Assembly (NCBI GenBank): GCA_900317935.1
Contig: ONIU01000003.1
Coordinates: 1 to 64,000, forward strand
Source of the DNA: an uncultured bacterium
Lineage (GTDB): Bacteria; Muiribacteriota; Ozemobacteria; Ozemobacterales; Ozemobacteraceae
Length of the DNA stretch: 64,000 nt
Reading direction: 5' to 3'
The notes below the pieces were generated by a model that was not told where the DNA came from, made no database searches, and worked only from the letters and a program-made list of their open reading frames with translations. Both the position numbers and the translations under genes were made by a program. The stretch's first letter is position 1. The number at the start of each line of letters is the position of its first letter. Below are positions 46,318 through 63,553 of this stretch, one piece after another.

Positions 46318-48609
46318 ATGGCTGAAGTTAAGAAAAACGAAAAAGTAGAAGCAGGTAAACCAACTGAAGCTAAAAAGGATGCAAAATCTGCAACAGCGCA
46401 AGCACCAGAAAAAGCTGATCATATAAAAGCTGAAGCTCCGGTAAAAACTGTTTCTAAGGCTGATTCCCAAAAGAAATTAGTAGATTTATTTTGTGGAATA
46501 GGAAGTCTACTAGCTGTAGGCGCAGCAATAGCTATTTTCCTTAATAAACTGCCTAAAAATTTAACAAAGATACAGAGCTTTTTTTCTTATTTTTATATAT
46601 TAGCAATTGCTGGATTTTTAGGCGTGCTAGGAGAGCAGTATTCAATAATGCTGCTAGGTTTTTCTTTGCCGGTTTTAATGGCAGGGGCGACTATATTGAT
46701 AAAATTGAAGCCGACTCAGTTCCCCATTGAAGATTGGTGGGATCAATATTCTATAATGGTTTTATTTTCGGCTGGTTTTCTATTATATCTTTATGTAAGA
46801 TTTGATAACTTGAGGAAAAATGGTCCGGCAATAGCAGATACAACCGGAAAGGTAACCGGTTCTGATGGTAACCTTAAAGCTAGAGTTGATCCTGCCTTAG
46901 CAGCAAAATATCGCGCTGAAATGGATGCAAAGAATAAAAAAGAATCTGCAAGTTTTGATAAAGCTTTAGGAGTTAATAAAGAGGCAGATAATAAAACTAT
47001 AGGTGTTCCTGGAGTGGCTAAGGCTGGACCTGCTGATAAAGCTAAGGATGGCAAAGCCGATAAACAAAGTAATGAAACAAACGAAGAACGTATGGAACGC
47101 GAAGTAAGAGAAATGCGTGAAGAGTTCAATAAAAGGTCTATGCGTCTTACAACAACTCTTATGCGAATTAAAAATCTTACCAAAAGTCTTGATAGAGACC
47201 AGATATTTGCCAATACTGTTGAAATTATTACCAAAGGTCTTGATGCCAAGAAAGTTCAATTACTTCTTAATGACGAAAAAGAAGGCAAGCTTCGTATTGT
47301 TAAAGCTACTGGCATGAAACCTTCTGAATATAAAAATTTTGAAGTTCCTTATGAAGAAGTCAGCATGATAACTCATCTTTTGGACCAGAAAATTAATGAA
47401 GTTACTGGTGGAGCTGGGGCTTTTGGGGTTAAGGAATGCGAAATGGATCCTCAGATGAAGGGGTTAATAGGAAAAGGGGTTCTCAGTACCATTTTGGCTG
47501 CTCCTATTTATGCAGAAGGAAAGCTGTTTGCTATTCTTAACGTTGAAGAAATGAATAATCCTGATTATACCAGAGATGATCAGAATCTTCTAACTACCTG
47601 CGCAGATGTTGCAGGTTTGGTTATGAAAAACGCAAAACTATATTCTGCAACAATGGATGATTTGGTTTCAGCTCAAAAGCTCAGTGAAGACCAGTTAAAG
47701 CAGAATGAACAGTTGAGAGGTAGTTTGAACCGTATCGTTTCACCAGCGGTTGCTGAAATGATCATGTCTGACCCGTCAGCTTTGAAATTAGGCGGTAAAA
47801 AATGTGAAGTATCATGTTTTTTTTCTGATATTCGTGGTTTTACAAAAATGTCAGAAAATATGGACCCAACAGATATAGTTGAACAATTGAACGTTTATTT
47901 TACCAGAATGACAGATATTTTAATGGAACTAGACGGAACGCTGGATAAATACGTAGGCGACGAATTGATGGCACTTTTTGGAGCTCCAGTAGCACGAAGT
48001 GATGACCCGATTAGAGCTGTTCTATGCGGTGTTAGAATGCTTGATGCTCTAAGAGAATTACAGGAAGTTTGGAAAAAAGAAGGAAAACCTGTTATTCAAA
48101 TAGGGGTTGGTGTTAACACTGGAATAGTTACTGCTGGATATATGGGTTCTGAAAAGGCTCTTTCTTATACGGTTATTGGTGATAATGTTAACCTTGCTGC
48201 TCGTATTATGGCTCAGGCCAAAGGGATGGAAATGTATATAACGAGGGCAACCTACGAAAGAGTTAAAGATTATTTTGATATCGAACAACGTGAATCAATC
48301 ATGGTTAAAGGTAAATCAATGCCTATCGAGATTTTCTGTGTCCTGAAAGTAAAAGATGGTGTAGATATGAGTCAGGTTATTGGTAAAGATGTTGGTCATG
48401 TCGCAAAATCTCTGGTTGAAGATAAGCCAAAGAAATCCGAATCAAATGTCAATAAACCTCTTAATAACTTACCTCCAAATATGAAAGAAGAGGATATGAA
48501 ACAGAATATTCAGATTGAAGAAGTTAAAATGATAGCATGTTCTAATTGTGGTCAGGAAAATCCACCACAAGAAAAGTTCTGTACAAAGTGTGGTATGCCA
48601 ATATTTTAG
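46318..48609 (+). CDS. Membrane adenylate cyclase (class III) with GAF domain and C-terminal zinc ribbon
   Basis: A 763-residue signalling enzyme that should make cAMP. Order: an Ala/Lys-rich cytoplasmic leader (1-50), four helices (about 55-160), a linker, a GAF domain (about 285-440), the class III cyclase domain (about 490-685) and a terminal zinc ribbon (CSNCGQENPPQEKFCTKCGMPIF). The cyclase has both metal aspartates (FFSDIRGFT and the D of LDKYVGDELMALFG), the purine-contacting Lys of that motif and the transition-state Asn/Arg of VNLAARI, so it looks active and adenylate-specific. It follows the TPR membrane protein 8 nt away without a ribosome site. A heptamer array touches its stop codon. 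Confidence 0.88.
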   Translation: MAEVKKNEKVEAGKPTEAKKDAKSATAQAPEKADHIKAEAPVKTVSKADSQKKLVDLFCGIGSLLAVGAAIAIFLNKLPKNLTKIQSFFSYFYILAIAGFLGVLGEQYSIMLLGFSLPVLMAGATILIKLKPTQFPIEDWWDQYSIMVLFSAGFLLYLYVRFDNLRKNGPAIADTTGKVTGSDGNLKARVDPALAAKYRAEMDAKNKKESASFDKALGVNKEADNKTIGVPGVAKAGPADKAKDGKADKQSNETNEERMEREVREMREEFNKRSMRLTTTLMRIKNLTKSLDRDQIFANTVEIITKGLDAKKVQLLLNDEKEGKLRIVKATGMKPSEYKNFEVPYEEVSMITHLLDQKINEVTGGAGAFGVKECEMDPQMKGLIGKGVLSTILAAPIYAEGKLFAILNVEEMNNPDYTRDDQNLLTTCADVAGLVMKNAKLYSATMDDLVSAQKLSEDQLKQNEQLRGSLNRIVSPAVAEMIMSDPSALKLGGKKCEVSCFFSDIRGFTKMSENMDPTDIVEQLNVYFTRMTDILMELDGTLDKYVGDELMALFGAPVARSDDPIRAVLCGVRMLDALRELQEVWKKEGKPVIQIGVGVNTGIVTAGYMGSEKALSYTVIGDNVNLAARIMAQAKGMEMYITRATYERVKDYFDIEQRESIMVKGKSMPIEIFCVLKVKDGVDMSQVIGKDVGHVAKSLVEDKPKKSESNVNKPLNNLPPNMKEEDMKQNIQIEEVKMIACSNCGQENPPQEKFCTKCGMPIF

Positions 48610-48933: not shown

Positions 48934-49920
48934 TTATTCTACTATAATTCTGTAGTTCTCAGGCATCTTAAAATCATATTTGCTGATATAATCATTGAAT
49001 TTATCATCATCAATTCTGTTGTCTTCATTATCAGAAGTTTCGTTTTCTTCGTTGTATTCACTTTCAGCAAAAGTTGAAGATTTTTCAGAATTTCTGAAAA
49101 GTTCTTCTATTTCATCATTTGCATTAGCAATAACTTCTTGGGAATTTCTAGCTTTTTTATCAGCTATTCTTTTTTCATAATCTTCTAATGCTGCATCTAA
49201 TTCACTACTTGCGGGAGTACTGCGTCTCTGACTATGTCTAATTCTTCTGATTGAGCGTTCTAGCAGCTGACCCGTAACGTATTCATTGCTTTTTTCAGCC
49301 TTCTGAGCAGGAACTACTCTTTCTTCCTGACTAGATTCATTAGTTTTGTTTTTGATTGGAACAGACCAGGCTTCAGAATCGTCAGCTTCCATAGCTTCTA
49401 TTATGATAATTTCGTCTTGAGAAGCGGTATTGGCTACTTCAGATTCTGTTGGAGTCTGTGCCGGTTTTTCTTCGGGTGTATCAGAAGTAACCGCTGGAAC
49501 AGCAACAACTTGTTTTTCTTCTTTTGATACTTCAGGTTCTGAAGAATTCTGATCGTTTGCTACGATAATATTTTCTTCTGTAACTTCAGTAACAGGTTTT
49601 GCTTCAACAGTAGTTACTTCGTTTTCATTTGTGTTAGCAGGTTTAATATGATTTTGTTTGAATCTCTTTTCAGATTCAAATCTTTCACGTCTTATTTTTG
49701 CCAAAACAGCAGAAAGTTCACGACCAGGAATATATTCATCGCTTGATGAATTAGAAGAAACTATTTCTGAAGGCTGTTCATTATTAGTTTCTAAAAGGCG
49801 GAGACGAGCACGCATAGCTTCAATAGCTTCTGTTGCTTCTTGAGATAATGCAAAGAGATTTGCTACCGGAAGTATACAGAAAAATACTGTAATCAAAAGT
49901 ATTTTTTCAAAATTCTTCAT
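48934..49920 (-). CDS. Exported acidic hypothetical protein
   Basis: A 328-residue secreted protein not recognised. A signal peptide (ILLITVFFCILPVANLFA) precedes a helix rich in Glu/Arg (EAIEAMRARLRLLETN), then a low-complexity Glu/Val/Ser/Thr-rich middle and an acidic C-terminus ending KYDFKMPENYRIIVE. One related motif appears twice, ELSAVLAKIRRERFESEKRF (near 68) and QLLERSIRRIRHSQRRS (near 220). No lipobox Cys. GGTGGAG lies 4 nt before the ATG. The gene is transcribed alone, with both sigma-70-like and sigma-28-like boxes upstream. Unstructured surface-exposed protein is likely; nothing more can be said. Confidence 0.72.
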   Translation of the reverse strand: MKNFEKILLITVFFCILPVANLFALSQEATEAIEAMRARLRLLETNNEQPSEIVSSNSSSDEYIPGRELSAVLAKIRRERFESEKRFKQNHIKPANTNENEVTTVEAKPVTEVTEENIIVANDQNSSEPEVSKEEKQVVAVPAVTSDTPEEKPAQTPTESEVANTASQDEIIIIEAMEADDSEAWSVPIKNKTNESSQEERVVPAQKAEKSNEYVTGQLLERSIRRIRHSQRRSTPASSELDAALEDYEKRIADKKARNSQEVIANANDEIEELFRNSEKSSTFAESEYNEENETSDNEDNRIDDDKFNDYISKYDFKMPENYRIIVE

Positions 49921-50106: not shown

Positions 50107-51153
50107 ATGAAAGAGAATAGTAAAAATATAAAAAAGCTTATATGGTTATTGGTTTTTATACTAATAGCTGTTTCAACTTTAGCGATAATTAGTCTCAATG
50201 AAGAGGAAGAAGAAATTTCAGAAGTTCCAATTCCTCCTAATTTATATTCTTCTTCTCATCATGTTATCGGAACTGGAAATACTTTGGGGACTTACTTTTC
50301 AGCAGGAAAGCTGTTAGAAAAATGGTTTAACGATAATATTGATAAAAATGGTGGTTCTTTCAAAGCTTTTCAAACGAACGGTTCCATAGATAATATTGTA
50401 TTGTTGCAGACAAAACGAATTGAATTTGGTATGTCTGAAGCAAGAATAGCAAAAGAGGCTTATTCTTCGAATCCTAAAATAAGAGTTGTATGGCCACTTT
50501 GGTATGATGTTGTTCAAATGATTAAGCCTCCGGAAGATTTAATGCCGAATTATGTATTCCCTGGTGAATTAAAGGGTTTTATCGGCCAAAAAAACTCTTC
50601 TACAGCTAGAACTTCAAAAGAAATATTCGAAGCTTTAAATATTTCAGGAAAACACAGTATTGATATTCCTATAGGAGAAGTTGTAAGAAAAATAGGTGAT
50701 GCTCACATTGGTTTTGCCATGATACAGGCAGGTATGCCGAATCGTACAGTGGCAGATTCCATTATATTTTATCATTGTGGTCTTATAAGTTTTGATGATA
50801 AACAGATTGACCTTATTTGTAATAAAGTTTCAACTTCTGTAAAATACACTATTCCTGCTGGTTATTACGAAGAAAATCAGCCTGAAATCAAGACTATTGC
50901 GCTTCCAAATGTTTTAGTAACAACCTCTGACATCTCTCCTGATTTGGTTGAATATGTTACAGAAATGCTTATTAAAGGATGTCCTAAGTTAAAGTATCGA
51001 TTTAAAGCCTTTGAAACAGTTCCAACAGATTCTGAATCAATTTTGAAGATTTTAAGAGAAACAGGAGTTCCTTTACATGAAGGGACAAGACGCTGGTTGG
51101 ATAAAAATTTGAACCAATTACAAAATTCAGAAAATGGAGGGTTACAGAATTGA
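50107..51153 (+). CDS. Membrane-anchored TAXI-family binding protein
   Basis: A 348-residue member of the TAXI (TRAP-associated extracytoplasmic immunogenic) family, normally the binding protein of TRAP transporters. The N-terminus is one helix (LIWLLVFILIAVSTLAIISL) without a clear cleavage site or lipobox; then a Glu run and the family opening HHVIGTGNTLGTYFSAGKLLEKWF. Ser/Thr-rich FIGQKNSSTARTSKEIFEAL matches the ligand-pocket strand. No TRAP permease (DctQM) gene is beside it. Its stop (TGA at 51151) overlaps the TTG start of the pseudopilin-like gene, and the cluster of three pilin-type genes follows, so a role in that apparatus is possible. A ribosome site is weak. Confidence 0.78.
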   Translation: MKENSKNIKKLIWLLVFILIAVSTLAIISLNEEEEEISEVPIPPNLYSSSHHVIGTGNTLGTYFSAGKLLEKWFNDNIDKNGGSFKAFQTNGSIDNIVLLQTKRIEFGMSEARIAKEAYSSNPKIRVVWPLWYDVVQMIKPPEDLMPNYVFPGELKGFIGQKNSSTARTSKEIFEALNISGKHSIDIPIGEVVRKIGDAHIGFAMIQAGMPNRTVADSIIFYHCGLISFDDKQIDLICNKVSTSVKYTIPAGYYEENQPEIKTIALPNVLVTTSDISPDLVEYVTEMLIKGCPKLKYRFKAFETVPTDSESILKILRETGVPLHEGTRRWLDKNLNQLQNSENGGLQN

Positions 51154-53393
51154 TTTTTTCTCCATTTCAAATAAAAAGAAAAAGTAGTAATCGTAAAGGG
51201 ATTATCTTTTTTGTTGTTATTGGGGCAATCGTTGTATTAGCTGTTCTGGTAGCTTCTTATAATTATCTGGTTATGGGAAAATCCAACGAAAGTCGCGAAA
51301 TACTCAGGCATTTAAGAGCAGAAAAATGTGCTCAATCTATTTGTCGATTTGTTTTTTCTCATTTTATCAGTGATTTAAACGATGAAACCAGCGGAGGAGG
51401 AGTTAGGATAAGGGAAGTTCTAATAAGTTCCAATAGTCCTGATAAACTTAGTGAAGAATTAAGCAAGAAATGGTTGGCTTATATTGGCTTCGATAATTTG
51501 ATAGATAATATTCTTAAAGGGACAATTGGTAGTGAAAAGCCAGATGTTCCATTAATAGAACTAGGTTTTTCTGATATTGCATCATTAAATAGTTTAAAAT
51601 CCTCTAAAGGCATAGGTGATGAAGTAACCTTTTTTGATTGGGAAAAGGTTGGACGACTAACTGTAAGAGTAACAATAAAAATTGGTAAAAGCCGTGCTGT
51701 TTGGCAGGAAACAAGACCTTTTAAAGTAGTTTTCCCATTTCCAATACCAATTACTAAGTTCAATTTTTATTGGACGGATGGAGCGGATGATCCTCTTGCT
51801 TTCAATACAGTTTCAATCAAAAGTGATACTGGTGAATCTTCAAATGGAAAACATCCGTTTTTACTTGATAATAAAAAATCTACAGAAGATAAGGATAACA
51901 AAACGGGGGATATGTGGATGAAACGAGGCTGGATTTATATTGGTGGAGATCATCTAATATTAAATCGTGCTAGCGGAAGTAAAAAATATGGTCAGAATTT
52001 TTATTCTTATAGAGATCCTGGACCACCAGTGACTTTAATGCTTGATTTCCCTTCCGGAGACAGATGGGATACGAATCTCTATAATAATGAGTTACTTGGC
52101 TTCAGAGTTGCTTACTGGGGTTTTTCTGATTCATTGACTAGTTCTTCAAATCAGACTTGGAAAATGATTTTAAAATCAGAATATGAAAATAATCCGCCAG
52201 GGTCGTCACAAACTGATAAATATTGGAATACTTCATGTCTTCATTTATTTAGTGACATAGGAATACGTGGCAGTAGTTCTGAATTAAACAATATTGTTCC
52301 ATCCATAACCAGAGTTATTGGAAAAGTTGATGACCGATACCTTGAAATGGGCTATTTATTGCCAGTAAATTCCAGCGAAGCTTTGTTTGCAGCAATAATA
52401 GGAATTGGTAATGCTGATGATAAAACAGAATATGAATCTCTCAAAACTAATTATTCTTCACAAAACGGAAAAAATTATTCTTTTGAGAATTTCTTATTCT
52501 TCTCTGAAGGCTATGATTTTGAAAATGATTCAGATAATAAGGGTGCAGATGCTTTGCAGAAATATTTTGATAAGTTGGAATATTCTGTAAATGACGTTAG
52601 TGCAGTTGATTATTATAAGGTAATGAGCAAATCTAACATACGAAGTATTGATGTAACCTATAATATTATATCTGAATATTCCAAAAATAATGAAGAAATT
52701 AGTCTTCCACCAGACCCCTCTGTTCCAGATGTTAATAATACTGTTTTTAAACCAAAGGATTATGTCGGTAGTGAATTTAAACTAGGCTATTTGCCTAAAA
52801 GTCTTGAAAATTTAGATGTTTCTAAAATTGGTAAATCAGAAGACAGCACCCTAGGTCTATCATTAAGAACCTGTTATGAAATAACAGGTTCTTCTGACGG
52901 TATACAAAGTTTATTGAGTTCTTATTTCGGTTCAAATTCAAATGGCTCTGATTTGAATCTGAATAATCTTGTTTATAAAGTTACTTCTGACAGCGGAAAT
53001 GTCCGTTTCAGCAATATGAATATCAATACTCCGGGAACTATTTACAGTGATGGTTCAATTACTGTTGGTGCATTTTTGCCTCCTCAAGGAGATTCTGCCA
53101 AAACTCCAGTTATGTTGCTTGCAGGAAAAGGACCTATTACTGTTAACAATTCTGGAAATAATGAAGTAAGAGCATACCTGGTTGCTTTGGGAGAAGGAGG
53201 AACGGTCAAGGCAGATAGAAAAGATGTTCCTCTTCTTATTAATGGTGGTATGGCTGTAAAAGAGTTTAAACCAGAGAATATTCCAGACAAAGGTGGATAT
53301 TTATTATATAATTCTGAATTAGATCCAACAGAAGAAGACTTTATACCTAAGTATCTTGGGGTGGCTGTTGGTCCAAAAGGAAGTAATCCATGA
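51150..53393 (+). CDS. Large GspK/PilX-like pseudopilin
   Basis: A 747-residue protein that starts with a TTG overlapping the previous stop, GGAGGG 8 nt upstream. The N-terminus (IKRKSSNRKGIIFFVVIGAIVVLAVLVAS) has the pilin-type basic leader, a Gly before the hydrophobic helix as prepilin peptidase site, and no Glu at position +5. That is the hallmark of GspK/PilX minor pseudopilins that cap the tip. The rest is a long exported domain, much larger than the 300-400 residues usual, with Ser/Asn/Asp-rich segments and GYLPKSLENLDVSKIGKS near 550. Followed by PilV- and PilW-like genes. Confidence 0.68.
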   Translation: MIFSPFQIKRKSSNRKGIIFFVVIGAIVVLAVLVASYNYLVMGKSNESREILRHLRAEKCAQSICRFVFSHFISDLNDETSGGGVRIREVLISSNSPDKLSEELSKKWLAYIGFDNLIDNILKGTIGSEKPDVPLIELGFSDIASLNSLKSSKGIGDEVTFFDWEKVGRLTVRVTIKIGKSRAVWQETRPFKVVFPFPIPITKFNFYWTDGADDPLAFNTVSIKSDTGESSNGKHPFLLDNKKSTEDKDNKTGDMWMKRGWIYIGGDHLILNRASGSKKYGQNFYSYRDPGPPVTLMLDFPSGDRWDTNLYNNELLGFRVAYWGFSDSLTSSSNQTWKMILKSEYENNPPGSSQTDKYWNTSCLHLFSDIGIRGSSSELNNIVPSITRVIGKVDDRYLEMGYLLPVNSSEALFAAIIGIGNADDKTEYESLKTNYSSQNGKNYSFENFLFFSEGYDFENDSDNKGADALQKYFDKLEYSVNDVSAVDYYKVMSKSNIRSIDVTYNIISEYSKNNEEISLPPDPSVPDVNNTVFKPKDYVGSEFKLGYLPKSLENLDVSKIGKSEDSTLGLSLRTCYEITGSSDGIQSLLSSYFGSNSNGSDLNLNNLVYKVTSDSGNVRFSNMNINTPGTIYSDGSITVGAFLPPQGDSAKTPVMLLAGKGPITVNNSGNNEVRAYLVALGEGGTVKADRKDVPLLINGGMAVKEFKPENIPDKGGYLLYNSELDPTEEDFIPKYLGVAVGPKGSNP

Positions 53394-53848
53394 GCAAAAG
53401 AGGCATGAGTCTTGTTGAAATATTAATCGCTTCGGCTGTGTTTCTTGCTGCAGTTATTCCTCTTTGGGGATTAATGGGGTCTTCACATCAGCAGGTAGTG
53501 CGTTCTGCTGATGAAATTAAGGCAAGCCAGTTAACGGTTGAGATTTTGGAACAAATAGAAAATTCTCATAATATCAATTGTTTCCCAGAAGATGATGTTG
53601 AAAAGGAATATGTCTTAAAGTCTGGCGAAGAACTATCTTTAGGCAGTGAACCTCCGGTAGTTTTAAAAGTTGGAACTTTTGAGGAATATTTGCAACCTCA
53701 TCTTTTTGTATCAGCTTACTCTGTTAAAGATGGATTTGTTGATGAAATAGTGATTGGCCGTGTAGTTACATTGGTAATGAATTACAGAAGCAAAGAAGGG
53801 CGTGATTCAAGTTATACTCTGAGAGGTTTTATAAGTGCAAATGATTAA
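53390..53848 (+). CDS. PilV-like minor pilin
   Basis: A 152-residue pseudopilin. The N-terminus MSKRGMSLVEILIASAVFLAA is a type IV prepilin signal: short basic leader, cleavage after Gly5, Met as the N-methylated first residue, and Glu at +5 of the mature helix (SLVE). Sequence after it is a small globular domain. Its ATGA overlaps the previous stop, and it overlaps the following gene by 14 nt. Together the three pilin-type proteins resemble the minor pilins V/W/X or the secretion pseudopilins that form the tip; no major pilin, ATPase or platform protein is in the window. Confidence 0.78.
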   Translation: MSKRGMSLVEILIASAVFLAAVIPLWGLMGSSHQQVVRSADEIKASQLTVEILEQIENSHNINCFPEDDVEKEYVLKSGEELSLGSEPPVVLKVGTFEEYLQPHLFVSAYSVKDGFVDEIVIGRVVTLVMNYRSKEGRDSSYTLRGFISAND

Positions 53849-54413
53849 GAAAAAAGCTATGACCCTCGTGGAAATACTTATTTGTTTTGCTATTCTTTCA
53901 GTAGTATTAGGTATAATTATTATTATGATGTCTCGAGGTGCTACCAATGTTAAAAGGGGCAGTTTTAATGCATTGGCTGCAAATCAGGCTTTTTGGATAG
54001 TATCTGTGATTAGAAGTGATATTTCTCGTTCTATTGGAGATATAGAGGCTGAATTAGATGGAGAAAACACTTGGAATGGAGATACTGAATTCAAAGTAAA
54101 TATAGAAGGTGGTACTGCTTACTATTCATTAGAAAAAAATGGTAATAAAATGACTTTTGTTAGAAAGTTTGTTCCTTCCAGCAGTGGAACCGCTTTTGTT
54201 GTATCTGATAGTAAAAGACAGACTTTTGGAGATGAGTATCTTAGTGATATGACTATTAAATTAAATGATGACAATAGTTATCTGATAAGTATAACCATGG
54301 ATGATACAAGTAAATCATCAAGTGGTATACATAATTTTACTTGGACATCTTCTATTTATCCTCCTGTAAATAACGGCTTGAATGAGTATTGGGTTTCGAC
54401 TTTAAGCAATTAA
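53835..54413 (+). CDS. PilW-like minor pilin
   Basis: A 192-residue pseudopilin. The leader MQMIKKKAMTLVEILICFAILSVV gives cleavage after Ala (KKA|MTLVE) and Glu at +5. A GTG start at 53835 is preferred since GAGAGG lies 8 nt before it; the ATG at 53841 is 14 nt away. The globular domain has the RSDISRSIGDIEAELDGENTW region and beta strands like PilW/GspJ. It overlaps the PilV-like gene by 14 nt, a sign of coupled synthesis. Likely a partner of the large GspK/PilX-like protein in one pseudopilus tip. Confidence 0.75.
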   Translation: MQMIKKKAMTLVEILICFAILSVVLGIIIIMMSRGATNVKRGSFNALAANQAFWIVSVIRSDISRSIGDIEAELDGENTWNGDTEFKVNIEGGTAYYSLEKNGNKMTFVRKFVPSSSGTAFVVSDSKRQTFGDEYLSDMTIKLNDDNSYLISITMDDTSKSSSGIHNFTWTSSIYPPVNNGLNEYWVSTLSN

Positions 54414-54442: not shown

Positions 54443-55048
54443 ATGAGATTTATTAAAGATATTAAAGAATTATCAATAATAGTCTTTGCTTTGCTTTTCT
54501 TGTTAACAGGCTGCTGCGGCGGAAGATATAATTATAATAGCTATAGAAAAAAAGGTGAGGAAGCTTTACTTGCCAAAAACTATAAAAAAGCTCAAAACTA
54601 TTACTCTACAATTTATACAAATGAAAGCAAAAAGCCAAATGCTGATATAGAAAAAACCAGATGGGCATTTTATCGGCTAGGTGTAATTGCGGAAGTTACT
54701 GGAAATCTGAAAATGGCGAAGGGCTATTACTGGGGAGACGCTATTGATGAAGGTTTTTATGATGAAAGTAAACTTACGAACTGGTTGGCACAGGCCGGTT
54801 GGGATCAAGTAGAAGAGTGCAATGAACCTAGAACATTAGAAGAAATTTTAGAGTTAGAATCTGCAGAACCTCCTGAAGAAGGTGATTTTACAGAACGAAA
54901 AAAAGATATTATTATTCCAAATAAAAATAAAGATGTTTCAAAATTAAACAAACTTCCTAATAAGAAGGGAATTATAACGAGAACAGTTAATAAATCTAGA
55001 ATAAGGCCTCGCCGTAATGCTCCAGAGCCTATGAAAGTATTGTATTAA
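54443..55048 (+). CDS. TPR lipoprotein
   Basis: A 201-residue lipoprotein. The signal peptide ends LLFLLTGCC, with lipobox LTGC and a second Cys at +2. One TPR pair follows (KKGEEALLAKNYKKAQNYYSTIYTNES and RLGVIAEVTGNLKMAKGYYWGDAIDEGF). The C-terminal 60 residues are Lys/Arg-rich and probably unstructured. It resembles small pilotin or assembly lipoproteins of type IV pili in having TPRs, but no family match is claimed. It lies 29 nt after the PilW-like gene, with GAAAGG before the ATG. Confidence 0.68.
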   Translation: MRFIKDIKELSIIVFALLFLLTGCCGGRYNYNSYRKKGEEALLAKNYKKAQNYYSTIYTNESKKPNADIEKTRWAFYRLGVIAEVTGNLKMAKGYYWGDAIDEGFYDESKLTNWLAQAGWDQVEECNEPRTLEEILELESAEPPEEGDFTERKKDIIIPNKNKDVSKLNKLPNKKGIITRTVNKSRIRPRRNAPEPMKVLY

Positions 55049-55644: not shown

Positions 55645-57384
55645 GTGGATTATAGTTCAGACAGATTATTATCAGCTAAGGACGCAATAGAAAGCGTTAA
55701 AAGAAATAACTTTACTCAAATATTGATTTTGGCTTTTATGCGCTTTTTTATTGGTTGGTGTCTTCTGTCTGGTGTTGTAATTCTATTATTTAGAATTCTT
55801 CATCTTAGAGCACCATTTATATTTTTATTTATATATGGAATCCCTTTGGCTGTGATTTATGGTGCTGATTATGCCAATAAACATAAAGCTTCTGATGATG
55901 TTTGCATTGCTAGTGTTGATGCTTATAATAAAGCTGGTGGACTTCTTATATCTGAATATGAAACAGGAGATTTAAGTTGGAGTAATTTTAGAAAATCTCG
56001 TTATATTGTTCCAGAAAGTAAAATGCCAGATGATTTTAAGCAGCTTCTAGGTATTCTTCTTATTTCTATGCTTTTTGTCTGCGGTAGTTTTTATGTTCCT
56101 TTGTTGAATCTAAATAAATCTGGCAGTAGAAATATTAACATTTCTAGAAAGGTAAATGAAATAAAATCCCAAATAGAATTGCTTCAACAAGAAGAAGTAA
56201 TTACTTCGGAAGAAAGAACCAAACTAGAAACATCATTAGATGAAATTGAAAAAAACTCAAATAACGAATCTCCGGGGATTACTTTTGAAGCTCTAGACCA
56301 AATGAGTGATAAATTGCGTTATGAAGCTTCCGACGAAATGAAGAAAAGAATAAAAGATATGGAAGTTTTAAAAAAGCTGGAAAAATTTGCGAAAGAAGCT
56401 AAAAAAGCGAATGGAGAAAGAAAAAAGTTTCAAGAAGAATTAGAAAAATTAAAAAAGCAATTAAGACAATTAGGTTTGAATGAAGCTGAGATTAATGATT
56501 TATTGAATAGCTATCTTGGTGATTCTGATGCATCAAATGGTATAAACAATACTAATGCAGGTAATCTTTCTAAATCTTTAAATAACAGTATTCAGAAGAA
56601 GATGATGGATACTTCTGAATTAGCTGAAAAAATGATTGAAAAGAATTTAATAGATAGTGCAACTGGCGAAAAATTCAAGCAGAGTATGGAATCAAAAAAG
56701 ACCGATGAATCTGGCGATTCTAGTAAGGATAACAGCTTTTTTGCTGTTAATAATGATTCGGTAAAGCCAGAAGGTGATAAACTGGACGATTCAGGAAAAG
56801 GAAATAATTCAAAAGAAAATAGTGGAAAAAATGGAGCTGAAATTTCACAGAATGGACAAAATGGCAACCAGGAAGGCAAAGATGGAACTCAGAGTGAAAT
56901 GAACGGCACTCAAGAAAATCAGTTGAAACAAGAAAATGGTCAACCAGGACAAGAAGGAGGACAGTCTGGCCAGAATGGTTCTCTGTCCGGAGATAAAAGT
57001 GGTCAGTCTGGACAGACTGGTAAAGAAAGTTCATCTGGTAATCAAGGTGAAGGAGACTCTAAACAGGGACTGATGACTATTGGTGGTGGAGATGGAGCTG
57101 GTGGAATCAGTAGAGGTGGGGGTTATACACCTATGTCTTTTGGAGACAAAACTTCTGACCATAATGCTAAATACCACGATGAAACTCTTCCCTCTGTTAA
57201 TCCAGAATCTGCACCAGGTGCTTCTAGTTTGGGAATAGGTATTGCTGATCCTGAAGTTAATCGCGATAAAGAAGACTATAGTGCCGGAAGCATTAAACAA
57301 GCAGACAATAATGATAATGTATTAAATAAAAAGAATATATTGCCAAAACATAGAAATGCTGTTAAAAACTATTTTAACCAGTAA
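55645..57384 (+). CDS. Membrane protein with coiled coil and Gln/Gly/Asn-rich tail
   Basis: A 579-residue protein with a GTG start (AAGGTG upstream). Residues about 22-80 form two helices (ILILAFMRFFIGWCLLSGVVILLF; APFIFLFIYGIPLAVIYGAD), a third lies near 133-155, a long coiled coil at about 165-290, then a low-complexity tail (about 380-490; repeated QNGNQEG/GQSGQ-like units) and a short end. It resembles the DUF4175-like proteins found with MoxR and DUF58 genes, but identity is inferred from neighbourhood. The MoxR gene begins 29 nt downstream. Confidence 0.6.
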   Translation: MDYSSDRLLSAKDAIESVKRNNFTQILILAFMRFFIGWCLLSGVVILLFRILHLRAPFIFLFIYGIPLAVIYGADYANKHKASDDVCIASVDAYNKAGGLLISEYETGDLSWSNFRKSRYIVPESKMPDDFKQLLGILLISMLFVCGSFYVPLLNLNKSGSRNINISRKVNEIKSQIELLQQEEVITSEERTKLETSLDEIEKNSNNESPGITFEALDQMSDKLRYEASDEMKKRIKDMEVLKKLEKFAKEAKKANGERKKFQEELEKLKKQLRQLGLNEAEINDLLNSYLGDSDASNGINNTNAGNLSKSLNNSIQKKMMDTSELAEKMIEKNLIDSATGEKFKQSMESKKTDESGDSSKDNSFFAVNNDSVKPEGDKLDDSGKGNNSKENSGKNGAEISQNGQNGNQEGKDGTQSEMNGTQENQLKQENGQPGQEGGQSGQNGSLSGDKSGQSGQTGKESSSGNQGEGDSKQGLMTIGGGDGAGGISRGGGYTPMSFGDKTSDHNAKYHDETLPSVNPESAPGASSLGIGIADPEVNRDKEDYSAGSIKQADNNDNVLNKKNILPKHRNAVKNYFNQ

Positions 57385-57413
57385 GAAAAATAGAAATAAT
57401 ATGGGAGTCGAAT

Positions 57414-58427
57414 ATGGCTTTAAATAACGTGAAATTACCTGATAAAACGGTTGTTGAAAGAGCTTCAAGAAATGTTGCAAGAGTTATGAGCGAATTGAAT
57501 CGCATTCTTGTAGGTAGACCAGAACTTCATAAGTTAGTCGTAACAGGTATTTTAAGTCAAGGCCATATTTTGTTGGAAGGTCTTCCTGGGGTTGGTAAAA
57601 CAGCTTTGATAAAGACTCTTGGCGAACTGTTCGGATTAAAATTCAGTAGAGTTCAATTTACACCAGATTTAATGCCTGGAGATATCTTAGGTTCTCACAT
57701 TCTTCAGCAGAGTGAAGATGGAAGCCGACAGATGACATTTCAGCCCGGACCTATTTTTACTAATATTTTACTTGCTGACGAAATAAACAGAGCTTCTCCG
57801 AAAACTCAGTCAGCTCTTTTGGAAGCAATGCAGGAAAGGTCTGTAACCCTTATGGGAACAACAAGAAAACTTCCCGATCCCTTTTTTGTTCTTGCTTCGC
57901 AAAATCCAATTGAATTAGAAGGTACTTATGCTCTTCCTGAAGCGCAGTTAGACCGTTTCCTCTTTAAACTAGAAGTTAAGGGGGCAGATGTTGATACTCT
58001 AAAAACTATTATTTCATCGAGACGTCGAGGCGAACCTCCTAAAACAGAATTCTGTTTCTCTGAAGCAGAATTAAAAGAACTATTTGATATTATGGAAGAA
58101 ATATATCTGCCAAACGCTGTTGCTGATTATATTGCGAGATTAGTTTGTGCTACATCTCCGACAAATAGTTCTTCCATCAAAGAAGTAAAAGACTTTGTCC
58201 AGTATGGTGCATCGCCTAGAGCGGCAATAGCTGTTTCAGAAGCGGCAAGAGCAATAGCTTTGATAGAAGGCAGACCCAGTGTGGGTTTTGAAGATGTCCA
58301 AAAAGTTTTTGTTCCTGCTCTTAATCACAGAATACTGTTAAATTACAAAGCTAGATTTGAGTCTTTAACTTCAGAGCTTCTTCTTAGGAAAATAATGGAT
58401 AGTGTTAAAGAAACAACTTTGGATTAA
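57414..58427 (+). CDS. MoxR-family AAA+ ATPase
   Basis: A 337-residue MoxR ATPase, usually a chaperone for vWA-domain proteins. Walker A GLPGVGKT near residue 50, Walker B LLADEINRASPKTQSALLEAMQE near 118, sensor 1 ASQNPIELEGTYALPEAQLDRF and arginine-finger region are intact. GGGAG precedes the ATG. It stands before a transmembrane protein, an ABC transporter, DUF58 and BatA genes, the usual MoxR/DUF58/Bat module for assembly of a membrane complex. Confidence 0.95.
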   Translation: MALNNVKLPDKTVVERASRNVARVMSELNRILVGRPELHKLVVTGILSQGHILLEGLPGVGKTALIKTLGELFGLKFSRVQFTPDLMPGDILGSHILQQSEDGSRQMTFQPGPIFTNILLADEINRASPKTQSALLEAMQERSVTLMGTTRKLPDPFFVLASQNPIELEGTYALPEAQLDRFLFKLEVKGADVDTLKTIISSRRRGEPPKTEFCFSEAELKELFDIMEEIYLPNAVADYIARLVCATSPTNSSSIKEVKDFVQYGASPRAAIAVSEAARAIALIEGRPSVGFEDVQKVFVPALNHRILLNYKARFESLTSELLLRKIMDSVKETTLD

Positions 58428-58446
58428 TTTTAAATTGGATAAAACG

Positions 58447-60282
58447 ATGATAATAAGAAATAAAAAGATAGTATTATTTGTATGGATTTTTGTGTTTTGT
58501 TTTTCTGTTGTTTCGCTTTTTGGTGCTGAAAAAGAAGAAGTATTTGTTGAAGAATTACCTTCTTTTTCGACAGGAAATGAAAATGGGTATGATGTTTTCA
58601 ATTTCAGATTAGAAAATTTAACCAGTAATAAACAGATAATAGATATTAGAGTTTATGTAGACAACGGTTCTAGTTCTGATTTGGAAGTAACAAAACAGGT
58701 TGAGTTAGTCGGTAGAGAAAGCCGAATTGAGAAAGTCTTTTTCCCTGTGAGAAATTCTAGTTATAAAGGTGAAGCTCGTTTTTATCTAAATGGAAGAGAA
58801 ATAGAACACTATAATCTTAAGTATAAACGAAATGGTTATTATAACAATAAAAGTATTCTTTTGGATAAGAGCATAACAGTTAATGATTCTGATAAGCTTT
58901 TTAAAGACCATGGTTTAGATTGGAGCGATAGAGGTAACTACAATTTGTGTTATTTTGAAAGCAATCTGGATATGATGGACAAAGACTGGATTGCATATTA
59001 TCAATATATAGCTTTAATATTTAATGAGGATACTTACAAAGAAATGCCACAAGCTGTTCGTGAAGCTATAATGGAATATGTGAAAGCTGGTGGCTGTCTG
59101 ATTGTTTTGGGTGAGATAGAGATTCCGGCTGATTTTTGGAATATCAAAAAAGAAATTATACAAAACACTTCATCAGGGGTAAATTGCACTTATAATATTG
59201 GTTTGGGCAAAATAGTGCTTTGTGCTAAGGATTTATTCAGCCAAATCAAAAAAACTCCTGAAACTACTTCAAGTAGTTATAGCTCATACGGTAGAAGAGA
59301 AACAAAGAAGACTGAAGTTGCAGCAGTAACTACCGGCAAATACGTTCCCAAAGATATTTTGCGTGAGTTTGGGTTCCAGAAGCAGACAAAACAGAATGAC
59401 TTAAGAGTAGAAAGTTGTTTTAGTGATGAATACAAGGCAATGACTTCGGTTGGTCTGTTAATTGTTCTTGTATTTGTGTTTGCCCTTCTCTTAGGACCAG
59501 TTAATTTTTATTTCTTAAATCTATATAAAAAGAGAATACTGATATTTGTTTCTGTTCCTATAATAGCCTTAGTTTGCTGTTCAATTATCTTTATTTATTT
59601 TTTGATTTTTGAATATGGAAGATTGGATATTTTCAGACAATCATTTGTTTTATTGGATGAAAACTCAAATACTTCTGTTGTTTTAGGTGGGGAATTAATT
59701 ATATCTGGTAAATCACTTAATGAACCTTTAAGTTTTCCTATAAATTCTATAGTTGGATTTAATAACGGTTATTATAGGCGTGAATCAGGTTCACTTGTTA
59801 AAGGAATAAAATTAGATAAAACTCAGAACTTTGTTTATAATTGGATAAAAGCTAAGGAACCTTTCTTTTACTCTGTAGTATCTATAAAGCAAGATCGTTC
59901 AAGAGTTGAATTTAATAAGTCTGGCAGTGATTATGAAATCTTGAATGGTTTGGGTGCTGATATTTCGCTTATCTATTATAGAGAGGATTATAATAAAGTA
60001 TACCAGGGTTCGAATATAAGAGCTGGCAGTAAAGCAACCATAACTAAAACTTCAAATAATTATCGCATGAATCCAAATACGATAGATTTGTATTCAATGT
60101 TTAAGAATTATAACAAGCCTGCAGATTCCGCAGAATCATTTGTTAAAAACTTAAAACCAGGTGAATATTTCGCAGTATTGAAGAGTGATCCTTTCTTAAA
60201 GCAGGATTTAGATAGAAAAGGCAATGTCCGCGAAATGGGCTGTTTCGTTTATGGTGTGTCCAAGAAAGGGGTATCAAGATGA
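58447..60282 (+). CDS. Membrane protein of the MoxR/DUF58 module, glutamine-amidotransferase-like
   Basis: A 611-residue protein. A signal or anchor helix (IVLFVWIFVFCFSVVSLFGA), an extracytoplasmic beta region, a segment like class I glutamine amidotransferase relatives (YYQYIALIFNEDTYKEMPQAVREAIMEYVKAGGCLIVLGE, near residue 190-230) and two helices near 345-400 (LLIVLVFVFALLLGPVNFYFL; IFVSVPIIALVCCSIIFIYFL). Such proteins are standard in MoxR/DUF58 clusters; no catalytic Cys was seen. The ATG at 58447 is preferred since the frame extends back only into moxR. Its stop overlaps the ABC ATPase start (ATGA). Confidence 0.75.
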   Translation: MIIRNKKIVLFVWIFVFCFSVVSLFGAEKEEVFVEELPSFSTGNENGYDVFNFRLENLTSNKQIIDIRVYVDNGSSSDLEVTKQVELVGRESRIEKVFFPVRNSSYKGEARFYLNGREIEHYNLKYKRNGYYNNKSILLDKSITVNDSDKLFKDHGLDWSDRGNYNLCYFESNLDMMDKDWIAYYQYIALIFNEDTYKEMPQAVREAIMEYVKAGGCLIVLGEIEIPADFWNIKKEIIQNTSSGVNCTYNIGLGKIVLCAKDLFSQIKKTPETTSSSYSSYGRRETKKTEVAAVTTGKYVPKDILREFGFQKQTKQNDLRVESCFSDEYKAMTSVGLLIVLVFVFALLLGPVNFYFLNLYKKRILIFVSVPIIALVCCSIIFIYFLIFEYGRLDIFRQSFVLLDENSNTSVVLGGELIISGKSLNEPLSFPINSIVGFNNGYYRRESGSLVKGIKLDKTQNFVYNWIKAKEPFFYSVVSIKQDRSRVEFNKSGSDYEILNGLGADISLIYYREDYNKVYQGSNIRAGSKATITKTSNNYRMNPNTIDLYSMFKNYNKPADSAESFVKNLKPGEYFAVLKSDPFLKQDLDRKGNVREMGCFVYGVSKKGVSR

Positions 60283-61211
60283 AACTGACAGTAAAACATC
60301 TTAGAAAAGAATTTGCGACTTGTTTAGCTGTTGATGACCTTTCATTTAGCATAGAGACAGGAGAAATAACTGGTTTTGTCGGTCCAAATGGAGCTGGTAA
60401 GACCACGACAATGAGAATTCTATCTACAATTGAAACATGCACAGATGGCAAAGTTGAATTAGATGGAAGATCTATTCTTGAATACCCTGAATTAGCTCGA
60501 AAGCATATAGGATATGTGCCTGATTCCTTACCTTCAAACAGTGATATGACTGTTCACGAATACTTGGATTTTTTTGCAAGAGCCTATGGGTTGAAAACAC
60601 CTCAAAGACAAGAGACAGTAAGTCAACTTGAAGAATTTACTAATCTTGTTGGAATTAAGGAAAAATATATAGATTCTTTGTCTAAGGGTATGAAACAAAG
60701 AGTATCTATAGCCAGGGCTCTTATCAGTGATCCAGACTTCATTCTGATGGATGAACCTGCTGCTGGGCTTGACCCGAGGGCTAGAATAGAACTCAGAGAA
60801 CTATTGAAAGTTCTTTGTGAACAAGGCAAAGGAATACTTATAAGTTCTCACATTTTGAGTGAATTGTCTGAAATCTGTACTGCAACTGTAATAATAGAAA
60901 AAGGTGAATTGCTTACTTCCGGCAAAATTGAAGAAGTTGTTAAGAAGTCCTCTTCAAGTAAGCGTGTTCTTCAGATAAAGACTTTGGAACCTAATGAAAT
61001 GCTTGGTAAGAAGCTAGTGTTAGAACCATTAGTCGATAAAATTTCGGTTATAGGAAATTCTTTTGAATTTGAATATGATGGCACGGATCAACAGGCCGCT
61101 GAGCTTTTAGCAACGTTGATCAAAGAAAATTATCAGATTATTTCATTTGGATTTAAACAGCAGAATCTTGAATCTGTATTTATGAACATTACGAAGGGTG
61201 ATGTACAATAA
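60279..61211 (+). CDS. ABC transporter ATP-binding protein
   Basis: A 310-residue ABC ATPase of the ABC-2/NatA type: Walker A GPNGAGKT near residue 39, signature LSKGMKQR, Walker B FILMDEPAAGLDPR, H-loop SSHILSE. The C-terminal 85 residues are the extra domain typical of export ATPases such as NatA/GldA. It pairs with the permease beginning 2 nt later. Substrate unknown; in such modules it may work with gliding- or secretion-type machinery rather than transport a solute. Confidence 0.92.
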   Translation: MKLTVKHLRKEFATCLAVDDLSFSIETGEITGFVGPNGAGKTTTMRILSTIETCTDGKVELDGRSILEYPELARKHIGYVPDSLPSNSDMTVHEYLDFFARAYGLKTPQRQETVSQLEEFTNLVGIKEKYIDSLSKGMKQRVSIARALISDPDFILMDEPAAGLDPRARIELRELLKVLCEQGKGILISSHILSELSEICTATVIIEKGELLTSGKIEEVVKKSSSSKRVLQIKTLEPNEMLGKKLVLEPLVDKISVIGNSFEFEYDGTDQQAAELLATLIKENYQIISFGFKQQNLESVFMNITKGDVQ

Positions 61212-61213
61212 TT

Positions 61214-62665
61214 ATGAATCCCACACTAGAACTTTATATACAAAAATTTGATGATAGCTTGAATGCTATTTTGGTAAAAGAATTAAGACAGACTGTCAGA
61301 GGAAAATTCTTCTGGAGCATTTTTCTTATATATTTGGTTATTATTTGTCTGATATTGTTCTTTTCGTTAAATGAAGTAAGCAGATATAATCTATTTAATG
61401 GTGATTCTGTTGCTACATTTTTGCTTATAGCCTTATATTTTATAGCTGGATTATTGGTTCCAATAAAAATAGGCAAAAAGACAAGTTCTGAAATAGGCGA
61501 TGCAACAAATGAACTCTTATATACTACGACTATGAGTTCTAAATCCATTGTTACGGGTAAATTTCTTTGCGGCTTCGTTATTATTTTAATGCTTTATTCT
61601 GCATTGGTTCCGTTTTTATCATTGACTCTGTTTATGGGTGGGGTCGATTTAAGAATATTGTTCTTTATGCTGGTTTTTTCTTTTATGCTTGCCAATCTTG
61701 GGGTAATATGGCAGATTTATCTCGCTTTGTGGATTGGAAATTCAGCAGGAGAAACAAGTAGCACCGTAAATACTGTTATGGGAAGTGTGTTCCATCTTGG
61801 TTGCTGGATTGGTTCTGTAACTTTTGCTAACAGTTTTATTTCAGATTATTCTTATCGTTCTGGATCAACTAGCATATGGGTTGTTCTTACTGTTTTTCTT
61901 CTTGGTTATATTTTTACTGGCGGAATGCTGTATGGCTCAACAGTATCAAGGCTTGAACCAGAAACTTCCAATAGAATGTACAATATTAGATTTATAGCAT
62001 CTATTGTTTGGATGATTGGAACTGTTGTTGCTACCTGTATTGATTTTGACGCATTAGCTGGATGGACTGTATGCGTTTTCATAGTATTAATGATTCTTTC
62101 TCTGAATATTTATTCTGAACCTGATTATTATAGTCAAAGAATTATTTCAGAAATACCAGATTCTGTTTACAACCGATTTTGCAAATTCCCCTTCTTTACA
62201 GGCGTGGTTAATGGTTTATGTTGGGTTTTTTTAATTTCTTTTTTAACAACTATTGTAGCTTTTTTGGGCACGATGATTTATTTAAAACATACAAGCGATT
62301 TTATGTCTTTTGTTTCTGTATTAATAGTATTTACTTTGCATATTAACGCTCATGGATTGTTCGCAAATTTCTTACGTAATATATTTTCTGCCGATGGAAA
62401 GAAATCGGGAGTTGGTCAGATTGCATTCCTTTCTTTTGTTATAACGAATATAGCTACTGCATTTATATTTAATATGTTTTTTAGTTATCGCGGTATATCT
62501 GAAGGTTTCATGATAATAGTGAATCCATTCTTCTGTTTATCTTATCATCGTTCTGTAATTGTTGGAATTATAGGTGGGTTTTTATGGCTTGGATTAGGCA
62601 TATTATGCAATATAAAGACCATTATTAACCAGTTTAGAGTATATTTCAATAAAGGTTACGATTAA
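61214..62665 (+). CDS. ABC-2 type permease
   Basis: A 483-residue integral membrane protein with about twelve helices and the ABC-2 opening (DSLNAILVKELRQTVRGKFFWSIFLIYLVI). It is the partner of the ATPase immediately upstream. The conserved ELRQ coupling segment near residue 22 is typical of this permease family. It starts 2 nt after the ATPase stop. Substrate unknown. Confidence 0.88.
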   Translation: MNPTLELYIQKFDDSLNAILVKELRQTVRGKFFWSIFLIYLVIICLILFFSLNEVSRYNLFNGDSVATFLLIALYFIAGLLVPIKIGKKTSSEIGDATNELLYTTTMSSKSIVTGKFLCGFVIILMLYSALVPFLSLTLFMGGVDLRILFFMLVFSFMLANLGVIWQIYLALWIGNSAGETSSTVNTVMGSVFHLGCWIGSVTFANSFISDYSYRSGSTSIWVVLTVFLLGYIFTGGMLYGSTVSRLEPETSNRMYNIRFIASIVWMIGTVVATCIDFDALAGWTVCVFIVLMILSLNIYSEPDYYSQRIISEIPDSVYNRFCKFPFFTGVVNGLCWVFLISFLTTIVAFLGTMIYLKHTSDFMSFVSVLIVFTLHINAHGLFANFLRNIFSADGKKSGVGQIAFLSFVITNIATAFIFNMFFSYRGISEGFMIIVNPFFCLSYHRSVIVGIIGGFLWLGLGILCNIKTIINQFRVYFNKGYD

Positions 62666-62680
62666 GGATAGATTTTTATT

Positions 62681-63553
62681 TTGAATAAGGTAAAACCAAA
62701 AGTTCTAAAATCAGCCGAAATATCCGGGCAAAGGTTTTGTCTTAACCTTTCATCCAGGTTTCTAGGTGTTCAGGGAGGAGGCAAGTTTGGCTCTAAAACC
62801 GGACAATCTCTTGAATTTGTTGAACATAGAGAATACCAACCTGGCGATGATATTCGCCATATAGATTGGAGTGCTGTTGCTAGATCTGATAAACTGGCAA
62901 TAAAACTATTTAGGGAAGAAATAACTCCTCATTTGGATTTACTTATTGATCTATCTGCTTCTATGGCAATAAATGAAGAAAAGTTTAATGCTTTAACTGC
63001 TCTTACTGCTATTTTTGTTAAAGCTTCATATAATTCAGGCTTTACAAATGATTCTTGGTTGATTAAGGAATTGTGCAACAAAGTTGAACCATCTAATCTA
63101 CCGTTGGAGAAATGGCCTGATTTTCAGGCTGACTATAAGAATAATACTGGAAAAACAATTTTTAATTATCCCCCAAAATTGCGAAGCGGTACGGTAAGAG
63201 TTGTTATTAGTGATTTGTTTTGGAATCAGGAGCCGATGGGAATCCTTCAAAGATTATCCGACGGAGCTGCTGCAGTAATTATTATTCAATTAGTTTCCAA
63301 AGCTGATATTGATCCAAATATTTATGGTAATATGCGTGTAATTGATTCAGAATCTGGTGAAGCTTTAGAATTAATTTGTGATGAAACATTAATTGCTGAA
63401 TATAAGACTAATTTCAATCGTCATAGACAGTATTGGAAGGAATGTTGCACAAAATCTGGAGCGGTCTTTTCTTTTATTGAGGCTGAGGAACTATTAAAAG
63501 ATTTTGTTCCAAATGATTTAATAAAAAATGAAGTTTTGATTTTGGGTTATTGA
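62681..63553 (+). CDS. DUF58 (vWA-like) protein
   Basis: A 290-residue member of DUF58, with the diagnostic EHREYQPGDDIRHIDWSAVARSDKLAIKLFREE near residue 48 and a vWA-like fold whose MIDAS-type site begins LLIDLSASM (D-x-S-x-S). The start is a TTG with AAGGA upstream. It lies between the permease and a BatA-like gene, as expected in MoxR/DUF58/Bat modules, where it is thought to be an adaptor or client of the MoxR chaperone. Confidence 0.9.
   Translation: MNKVKPKVLKSAEISGQRFCLNLSSRFLGVQGGGKFGSKTGQSLEFVEHREYQPGDDIRHIDWSAVARSDKLAIKLFREEITPHLDLLIDLSASMAINEEKFNALTALTAIFVKASYNSGFTNDSWLIKELCNKVEPSNLPLEKWPDFQADYKNNTGKTIFNYPPKLRSGTVRVVISDLFWNQEPMGILQRLSDGAAAVIIIQLVSKADIDPNIYGNMRVIDSESGEALELICDETLIAEYKTNFNRHRQYWKECCTKSGAVFSFIEAEELLKDFVPNDLIKNEVLILGY

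Follow-up and report, generated by a model that had tools for sequence, protein, structure and literature searches.

Why should a solute-binding protein of the TAXI family be encoded at the head of a train of pseudopilin genes? This arrangement was found in a 64-kb stretch of DNA, referred to here as the window (contig C297 of a source assembly of 4.55 Mb in 371 contigs, 96.8% complete and 5.4% contaminated). The host is an uncultured Candidatus Riflebacteria bacterium of the class Ozemobacteria; the nearest named-record relatives of the window TAXI are Candidatus Riflebacteria of goat abomasum, reindeer and rumen, followed by Riflebacteria, Rifleibacterium and Ozemobacter. An initial annotation of positions 50107-54413 had proposed a new combination, a solute-binding protein in a pilus-tip-like operon, perhaps sensing a ligand to control the apparatus. 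The combination proved to be real and conserved: TAXI is paired with a giant GspK-like pseudopilin, K, at every locus that could be assessed, and it is probably not a transporter subunit. The genes of the cassette are all encoded on the plus strand.

50107 to 51153, plus strand: TAXI-family solute-binding protein, 348 amino acids (PF16868, TIGR02122, predicted fold).
51136 to 51141, plus strand: Shine-Dalgarno sequence GGAGGG in the 3' end of TAXI, 8 nucleotides before the TTG start of K (from the sequence).
51150 to 53393, plus strand: K, giant GspK-like pseudopilin, 747 amino acids (leader, predicted structure; no PDB match).
53390 to 53848, plus strand: V, PilV/GspI-like minor pseudopilin, 152 amino acids (leader MSKRG/MSLVE, the slash marking the cleavage site).
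53835 to 54413, plus strand: W, PilW/GspJ-like minor pseudopilin, 192 amino acids (leader KKKA/MTLVE).
54443 to 55048, plus strand: lipoprotein with lipobox LLTGC, weakly TPR/BamD-like, the last conserved cassette member.

Overlaps of 4 bp (TAXI/K), 4 bp (K/V) and 14 bp (V/W) are followed by a 29-bp gap to the lipoprotein gene. The overlap of the TAXI stop with the start of the next gene was as first annotated, with the TGA at 51151-51153 overlapping the TTG at 51150. The coordinates and overlaps of the gene train also stood, but not its end, as the unit continues to the lipoprotein ending at 55048.

The window TAXI scored 130.8 bits with PF16868 (cut-off 27) and 121 bits with TIGR02122 (cut-off 84). 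Its AlphaFold2 model (predicted local distance difference test, pLDDT, 77) has the two-domain Venus-flytrap fold of TAXI type, located at residues 52-335. A fold search of the PDB with this model gave seven TAXI structures as the top seven matches (E-values 1e-20 to 5.6e-18; with Foldseek, 3.5e-19 to 9ibo and 4.5e-19 to 1us4). The N-terminal anchor spans approximately residues 12-30, within a helix predicted at 3-30 in the model, and the cytoplasmic end is short, about 10 residues. In 12 orthologues an N-terminal hydrophobic stretch is followed by an acidic/proline-rich linker and a conserved PPxLYSSS motif (one Phe and one Met variant). Neither a lipobox nor an obvious signal-peptidase site, the latter judged by eye, was seen in these 12 proteins, which agrees with the uncleaved anchor claimed for TAXI. 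The possibility that TAXI is itself a pilin was rejected because the class III leader is missing in most orthologues: no G/A cleavage motif precedes the helix in the TAXI of the window or of loci L031, L033 and L036, and an RxG- or SG-like motif is present in some distant orthologues only. At one locus (L039:2078-3133, genome G019) an in-frame TAG breaks the TAXI gene, which is either a pseudogene or an assembly error.

TAXI orthologues, which score 303-567 bits with a subfamily profile compared to at most 121 bits for any other TAXI, were found in 11 further Ozemobacteria genomes, as a second copy in the source assembly and as a contig-end fragment in genome G002. K lies directly after TAXI in 12 of the 12 loci with sequence left downstream, representing five genera; two further subfamily TAXIs are located at contig ends and fall outside these assessable loci. 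V, W and the lipoprotein follow K in 11 loci, and the twelfth contig stops within K. A survey of genes next to TAXI, suggested with the initial annotation, has thus found the pairing with pseudopilins conserved, and chance adjacency of TAXI and K was rejected. Over ten measured cassettes the TAXI-K overlap or gap was between -59 and +1. All K orthologues (at least 575 bits) have TAXI upstream, and the next K scores 158. The flanks of the cassette vary, with a cyclase and a TPR gene in some relatives and other genes in L033, L038, L040 and L041; in genome G016 the cassette adjoins what was judged by eye to be a probable Tad-type pilus cluster. A second entire cassette with different flanks is present in the source assembly (L033, contig C227). 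This copy groups with genome G017 in the trees of TAXI (96/95), K (89/90) and W (74/85), and the shared split indicates movement or duplication of the whole cassette in one piece. Contig C227 could belong to a contaminating strain; its GC content is close to that of the window contig (34.2 vs 34.8%). The subfamily motifs, scanned against one genome for each GTDB species, gave 12 loci, all matching genomes belonging to the class Ozemobacteria. A search of the phylum found the subfamily in no genome outside the class, the best score outside being 101 bits.

A TRAP permease as partner of TAXI was looked for elsewhere in the genome and in the class. DctM gave no match in the source genome and none above the curated cut-off in 22 class genomes (one weak match fell below it), 19 of which have TAXI genes. 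A TRAP permease partner was therefore rejected, and so was a GltS partner of the kind seen in Bordetella, as GltS was not found in the source genome. The initial annotation, which had described TAXI as lacking a TRAP permease, was right for the genome and, at the cut-off, for the 22 class members. It had also named a TRAP permease elsewhere and an unconserved pairing as findings that would speak against its idea; the survey gave neither. The TAXI of the cassette is thus probably not a transporter subunit.

K had been described as an outsized GspK/PilX-like protein, and its leader and long predicted helix confirmed it as GspK-like. The leader, NRKG17/IIFFVV, has an invariant G17, a valine at +5 and no E5; the GspK leader likewise has no Glu5. 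Cassette K is roughly double GspK in size. The K model consists of an N-terminal helix at 15-76 (62 residues), a pilin-like head at approximately 130-195, a middle part of low confidence and a beta-rich C-terminal region at 570-747. A beta-helix at this C-terminal end was not confirmed, nothing in the PDB being matched by profile or fold. K is termed GspK-like and not GspK because no sequence or fold match to GspK was obtained. V and W carry class III leaders with Glu5 (G/MSLVE and A/MTLVE), and with PF07963 W scored 24.1 bits, above the cut-off of 21.2, and V 17.8, below it. The prepilin motifs GMSLVE and AMTLVE, together with the overlaps already given, agree with the overlapping PilV/PilW-like genes first noted here. 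In the type II secretion system (T2SS) or in type IV pili (T4P), a complex of K-I-J or of PilX-V-W initiates the filament and comes to lie at its tip. The source genome gave 30 matches to PF00437 (T2SS/T4P/Tad-type ATPases) and 6 to PF00263 (secretins), none of them in the cassette. With about 30 such ATPases and 6 secretins, the genome is unusually rich in filament machines.

The binding residues of VcGluP (PMC11574862) were mapped by hand onto a phmmer alignment, giving N58, T62, Y63, S93, E111, W132, D134, S165, T166, R168, I206, Q207 and G209 as the pocket positions of TAXI. Twelve of these 13 positions are invariant in the 12 orthologues, compared to 50 of 289 positions overall (hypergeometric p=2.5e-9). 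A degenerate, non-binding TAXI was rejected, as few parts of the protein are as conserved as the pocket; such conservation is expected of any binding protein and excludes a dead receptor. The equivalents of Tyr45 (Y63) and Ser75 of VcGluP are retained. Gln93, the strongest binding determinant in VcGluP (PMC11574862), is changed to Glu111, E125 to Asp134, H123 to Trp132, M201 to Gln207 and G156/D157 to Ser/Thr, and an invariant Arg168 is nearby. Of the glutamate-binding signature Tyr45 plus Gln93 (VcGluP numbering) the Tyr is kept, and the Gln is replaced by the invariant Glu111. Ten other Riflebacteria TAXIs compared retain Gln, Glu and Gly where the pilin-linked TAXI differs. Judged from sequence, the pilin-linked TAXI very likely binds some ligand, the same one throughout the clade. 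This ligand is probably not glutamate, because the pocket, though invariant, differs in its chemistry (Q to E, E to D, M to Q).

Two genes are found upstream of the cassette.

46318 to 48609, plus strand: membrane protein with GAF, nucleotidyl-cyclase and zinc-ribbon domains (Pfam profiles, neighbourhoods).
48934 to 49920, minus strand: acidic secreted protein, 328 amino acids (no Pfam match; function unassigned).

The GAF/nucleotidyl-cyclase gene is linked to the cassette in many but not all relatives and is regarded as a neighbour, not as a proven cassette part. The gene of the acidic secreted protein, a probable cassette associate, is divergent from TAXI in the window, L031, L032 and L034, and lies on the same strand directly upstream in L036 and L037. 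Downstream, at 55645-63553 of the window, a membrane protein, a MoxR ATPase, a large membrane protein, an ABC ATPase, an ABC permease and a DUF58 protein are encoded in a run, which is syntenic in several relatives and lies outside the cassette in L033 and L036.

In the class, 31 other TAXI loci were examined, counted over related genomes and thus not independent events. Nineteen lie directly behind relatives of a dCache-HAMP-GAF-GGDEF protein, mostly overlapping them, nine directly before a D-Ala-D-Ala ligase (Ddl) gene and three elsewhere or at contig ends; the cyclase neighbours were assigned by BLAST to Pfam-verified proteins. TAXI and diguanylate cyclase look like a widespread permease-free pair, found in the source genome at L044:10344-13537 and L045:8569-11669 (contigs C226 and C314) and at 17 more loci. 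The cyclase-linked TAXIs have, by eye, ordinary-looking cleavable signals, e.g. SPVFAQ. The Ddl gene directly downstream of TAXI (L050, L126, L127, L130-L133, L136 and L145) may connect a periplasmic binding protein with the synthesis of the cell wall. The presence of three fixed permease-free partnerships in the class argues that this lineage has repurposed TAXI proteins for sensing or control. The ligand sensing first suggested for the window TAXI is thereby supported indirectly, by the invariant pocket and by the fixed link of most other class TAXIs to diguanylate cyclases; control of the apparatus is a step that we infer.

Genome G004, which is 96% complete and has zero TAXI genes, contains K, V, W and the lipoprotein at the syntenic site by the cyclase gene (L096). 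Many other K-V-W cassettes in these genomes also occur without TAXI, having flagellin-like/STAS, extracytoplasmic function (ECF) sigma/anti-sigma or SH3-domain proteins as partners. TAXI is therefore accessory, and most plausibly one of a number of control modules with which K-V-W is combined. At the usual place of TAXI in G004 (L096:8636-9292) there is a 218-residue K-like open reading frame, either a gene remnant or a different partner. A 262-residue flagellin-like protein (PF00669, PF00700) and a STAS protein stand beside giant K, V and/or W at L097:1-6600 (source genome, contig C263), L100, L101, L102 and L107, and at L097 and L100 a GAF-nucleotidyl cyclase comes after the cassette. At L099:40-5533 (source genome, contig C150), L106 and probably L103 and L104, an ECF sigma factor and a zinc-finger anti-sigma factor lie between or beside K and V-W, together with a LysM protein, which suggests that these pseudopilins are wired to transcription control. 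L098:936-10315 (source genome, contig C142) holds a tandem pair of cassettes, each of SH3-domain protein, K, V and W.

An explanation for the pairing, to which we give an even chance, could be that TAXI is a tethered ligand receptor that gates the K-V-W priming/tip complex. TAXI would be held in the inner membrane by its uncleaved N-terminal helix and, going by what is known of the family, would display its Venus-flytrap receptor in the periplasm. K, V and W, made together with TAXI and the lipoprotein, would by the same kind of knowledge form the priming/tip complex of a type IV filament. Being in the same membrane and in a fixed ratio with K, TAXI would be placed to hold or release K-V-W by ligand. 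A small ligand, with glutamate improbable, would bind to the TAXI domain, and depending on whether this domain is open or closed K-V-W would either stay in the inner membrane or be freed to prime the filament. The TAXI-free relative in G004 fits such an accessory controller. A further-reaching form is put forward tentatively and with some doubt: a ligand-gated type IV filament, in which an anchored Venus-flytrap receptor would directly control pseudopilus priming by a giant GspK-like tip protein, as one of several class-wide conversions of a binding protein to a control element.

Several points weigh against this explanation. Contact between TAXI and K, switching by ligand, and an output in filament assembly rather than in signalling are all steps that we infer. 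The K model is poor in its middle part (overall pLDDT 55), and K gave no match in Pfam, NCBIfam or the PDB by profile or fold, the fold test being weak with such a model. The core machine genes lie outside the cassette. The cassette was found in a single class only, and the correlation between TAXI and K ortholog identities (r=0.90) is one that shared species history alone would in large part give.

The other explanations differ in what they take TAXI to do. The pseudopilins could bring nutrient, or nutrient-bearing material, to a tethered TAXI that passes the ligand on to a permease from a different family, much as in the bindosome of Sulfolobus. The pocket is intact, TAXI-GltS is a precedent for a non-TRAP permease (PMC12344293), and the Sulfolobus type IV-filament system Bas handles sugar-binding proteins (PMC4471445). 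Such nutrient capture is nevertheless unlikely: the cassette has no permease gene in any relative, DctM and GltS are absent from the source genome and, unlike bindosome proteins, most TAXI orthologues lack a class III pilin leader at their anchor. If TAXI were an assembly factor, serving K in the inner membrane as a chaperone or as part of a platform and holding a segment of K or a structural ligand in its pocket, this would account for the tight coupling and parallel divergence of TAXI and K and for a pocket chemistry altered from that of other TAXIs. However, G004 has K-V-W and the lipoprotein without TAXI, and further K-V-W cassettes of the same genomes do without it too, so that this role is given a similarly low probability.

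Improbable, to a slightly greater degree, is an envelope sensor composed of K-V-W and TAXI, with a cytoplasmic output, a cyclic nucleotide made by the GAF cyclase of 46318-48609, in place of filament assembly. The cyclase gene is near the cassette in many relatives, genes for a cyclase, ECF sigma/anti-sigma factors or STAS proteins lie next to other K-V-W cassettes, and other TAXIs are fixed to diguanylate cyclases. But the cyclase gene is not adjacent to the cassette in L033, L038, L040 and L041, and the cytoplasmic end of TAXI is short, at about 10 residues. TAXI could also act alone, as sharing an operon need not mean interaction; this we consider very improbable, as the pairing has been held in five genera despite changing flanks, and in the moved second copy, and no other partner of TAXI was found.

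TAXI proteins are usually treated as transporter parts, and the present cassette indicates that a TAXI annotation alone does not imply uptake. The class keeps up to five TAXIs per genome without detectable DctM, fixed to pseudopilins, diguanylate cyclases and a cell-wall enzyme. Gating of K-V-W by TAXI, if it occurs, would put type IV filament assembly under a small-molecule switch; this step is as a rule discussed with regard to ATPases and cytoplasmic second messengers. Signalling roles have been proposed for orphan solute-binding proteins, in the case of TctC (PMC5812351). In the open-access literature, no report was found in which a solute-binding protein is combined with minor pseudopilins, nor one of TAXI with GGDEF, and to this extent the combination is new.

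Among known systems, the GspK-GspI-GspJ trio of the T2SS and PilX-PilV-PilW of T4P resemble the cassette in that K-like, V/I-like and W/J-like proteins are encoded side by side and K has no E5. In contrast to these trios, cassette K has no Pfam match, is joined by TAXI and a lipoprotein and is distant from the core machine genes. Verru_Chthon proteins form repeated gene cassettes of pilin-like proteins (TIGR02599 and related); we know of no such cassette with a solute-binding protein, and the best match to TIGR02599 was 13.9 bits, far below the cut-off of 256.5 (E=0.024). VcGluP (VC0430) and TtGluBP of TAXI-TRAP systems share family and fold with the window TAXI (TIGR02122, PF16868), which differs in its uncleaved anchor, its altered pocket, its pseudopilin operon and the absence of DctM from the genome and, at the cut-off, from the class. 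The TAXI-GltS protein of Bordetella pertussis (BP0403) is a TAXI lipoprotein with an extra domain and a transporter partner, the two genes overlapping (PMC12344293). As in the window, there is a TAXI without TRAP permease whose gene overlaps that of its partner, but the partner in Bordetella is a transporter and in the window a pseudopilin, with no GltS in the genome. In the Sulfolobus bindosome/Bas system, the binding proteins, which function in sugar uptake, themselves have class III pilin leaders (PMC4471445). Solute-binding proteins are tied to a type IV filament system in both, whereas in the window the TAXI anchor is a plain one and the pilins are proteins in their own right. The bindosome and TAXI-GltS are the nearest precedents of the TAXI-pseudopilin cassette.

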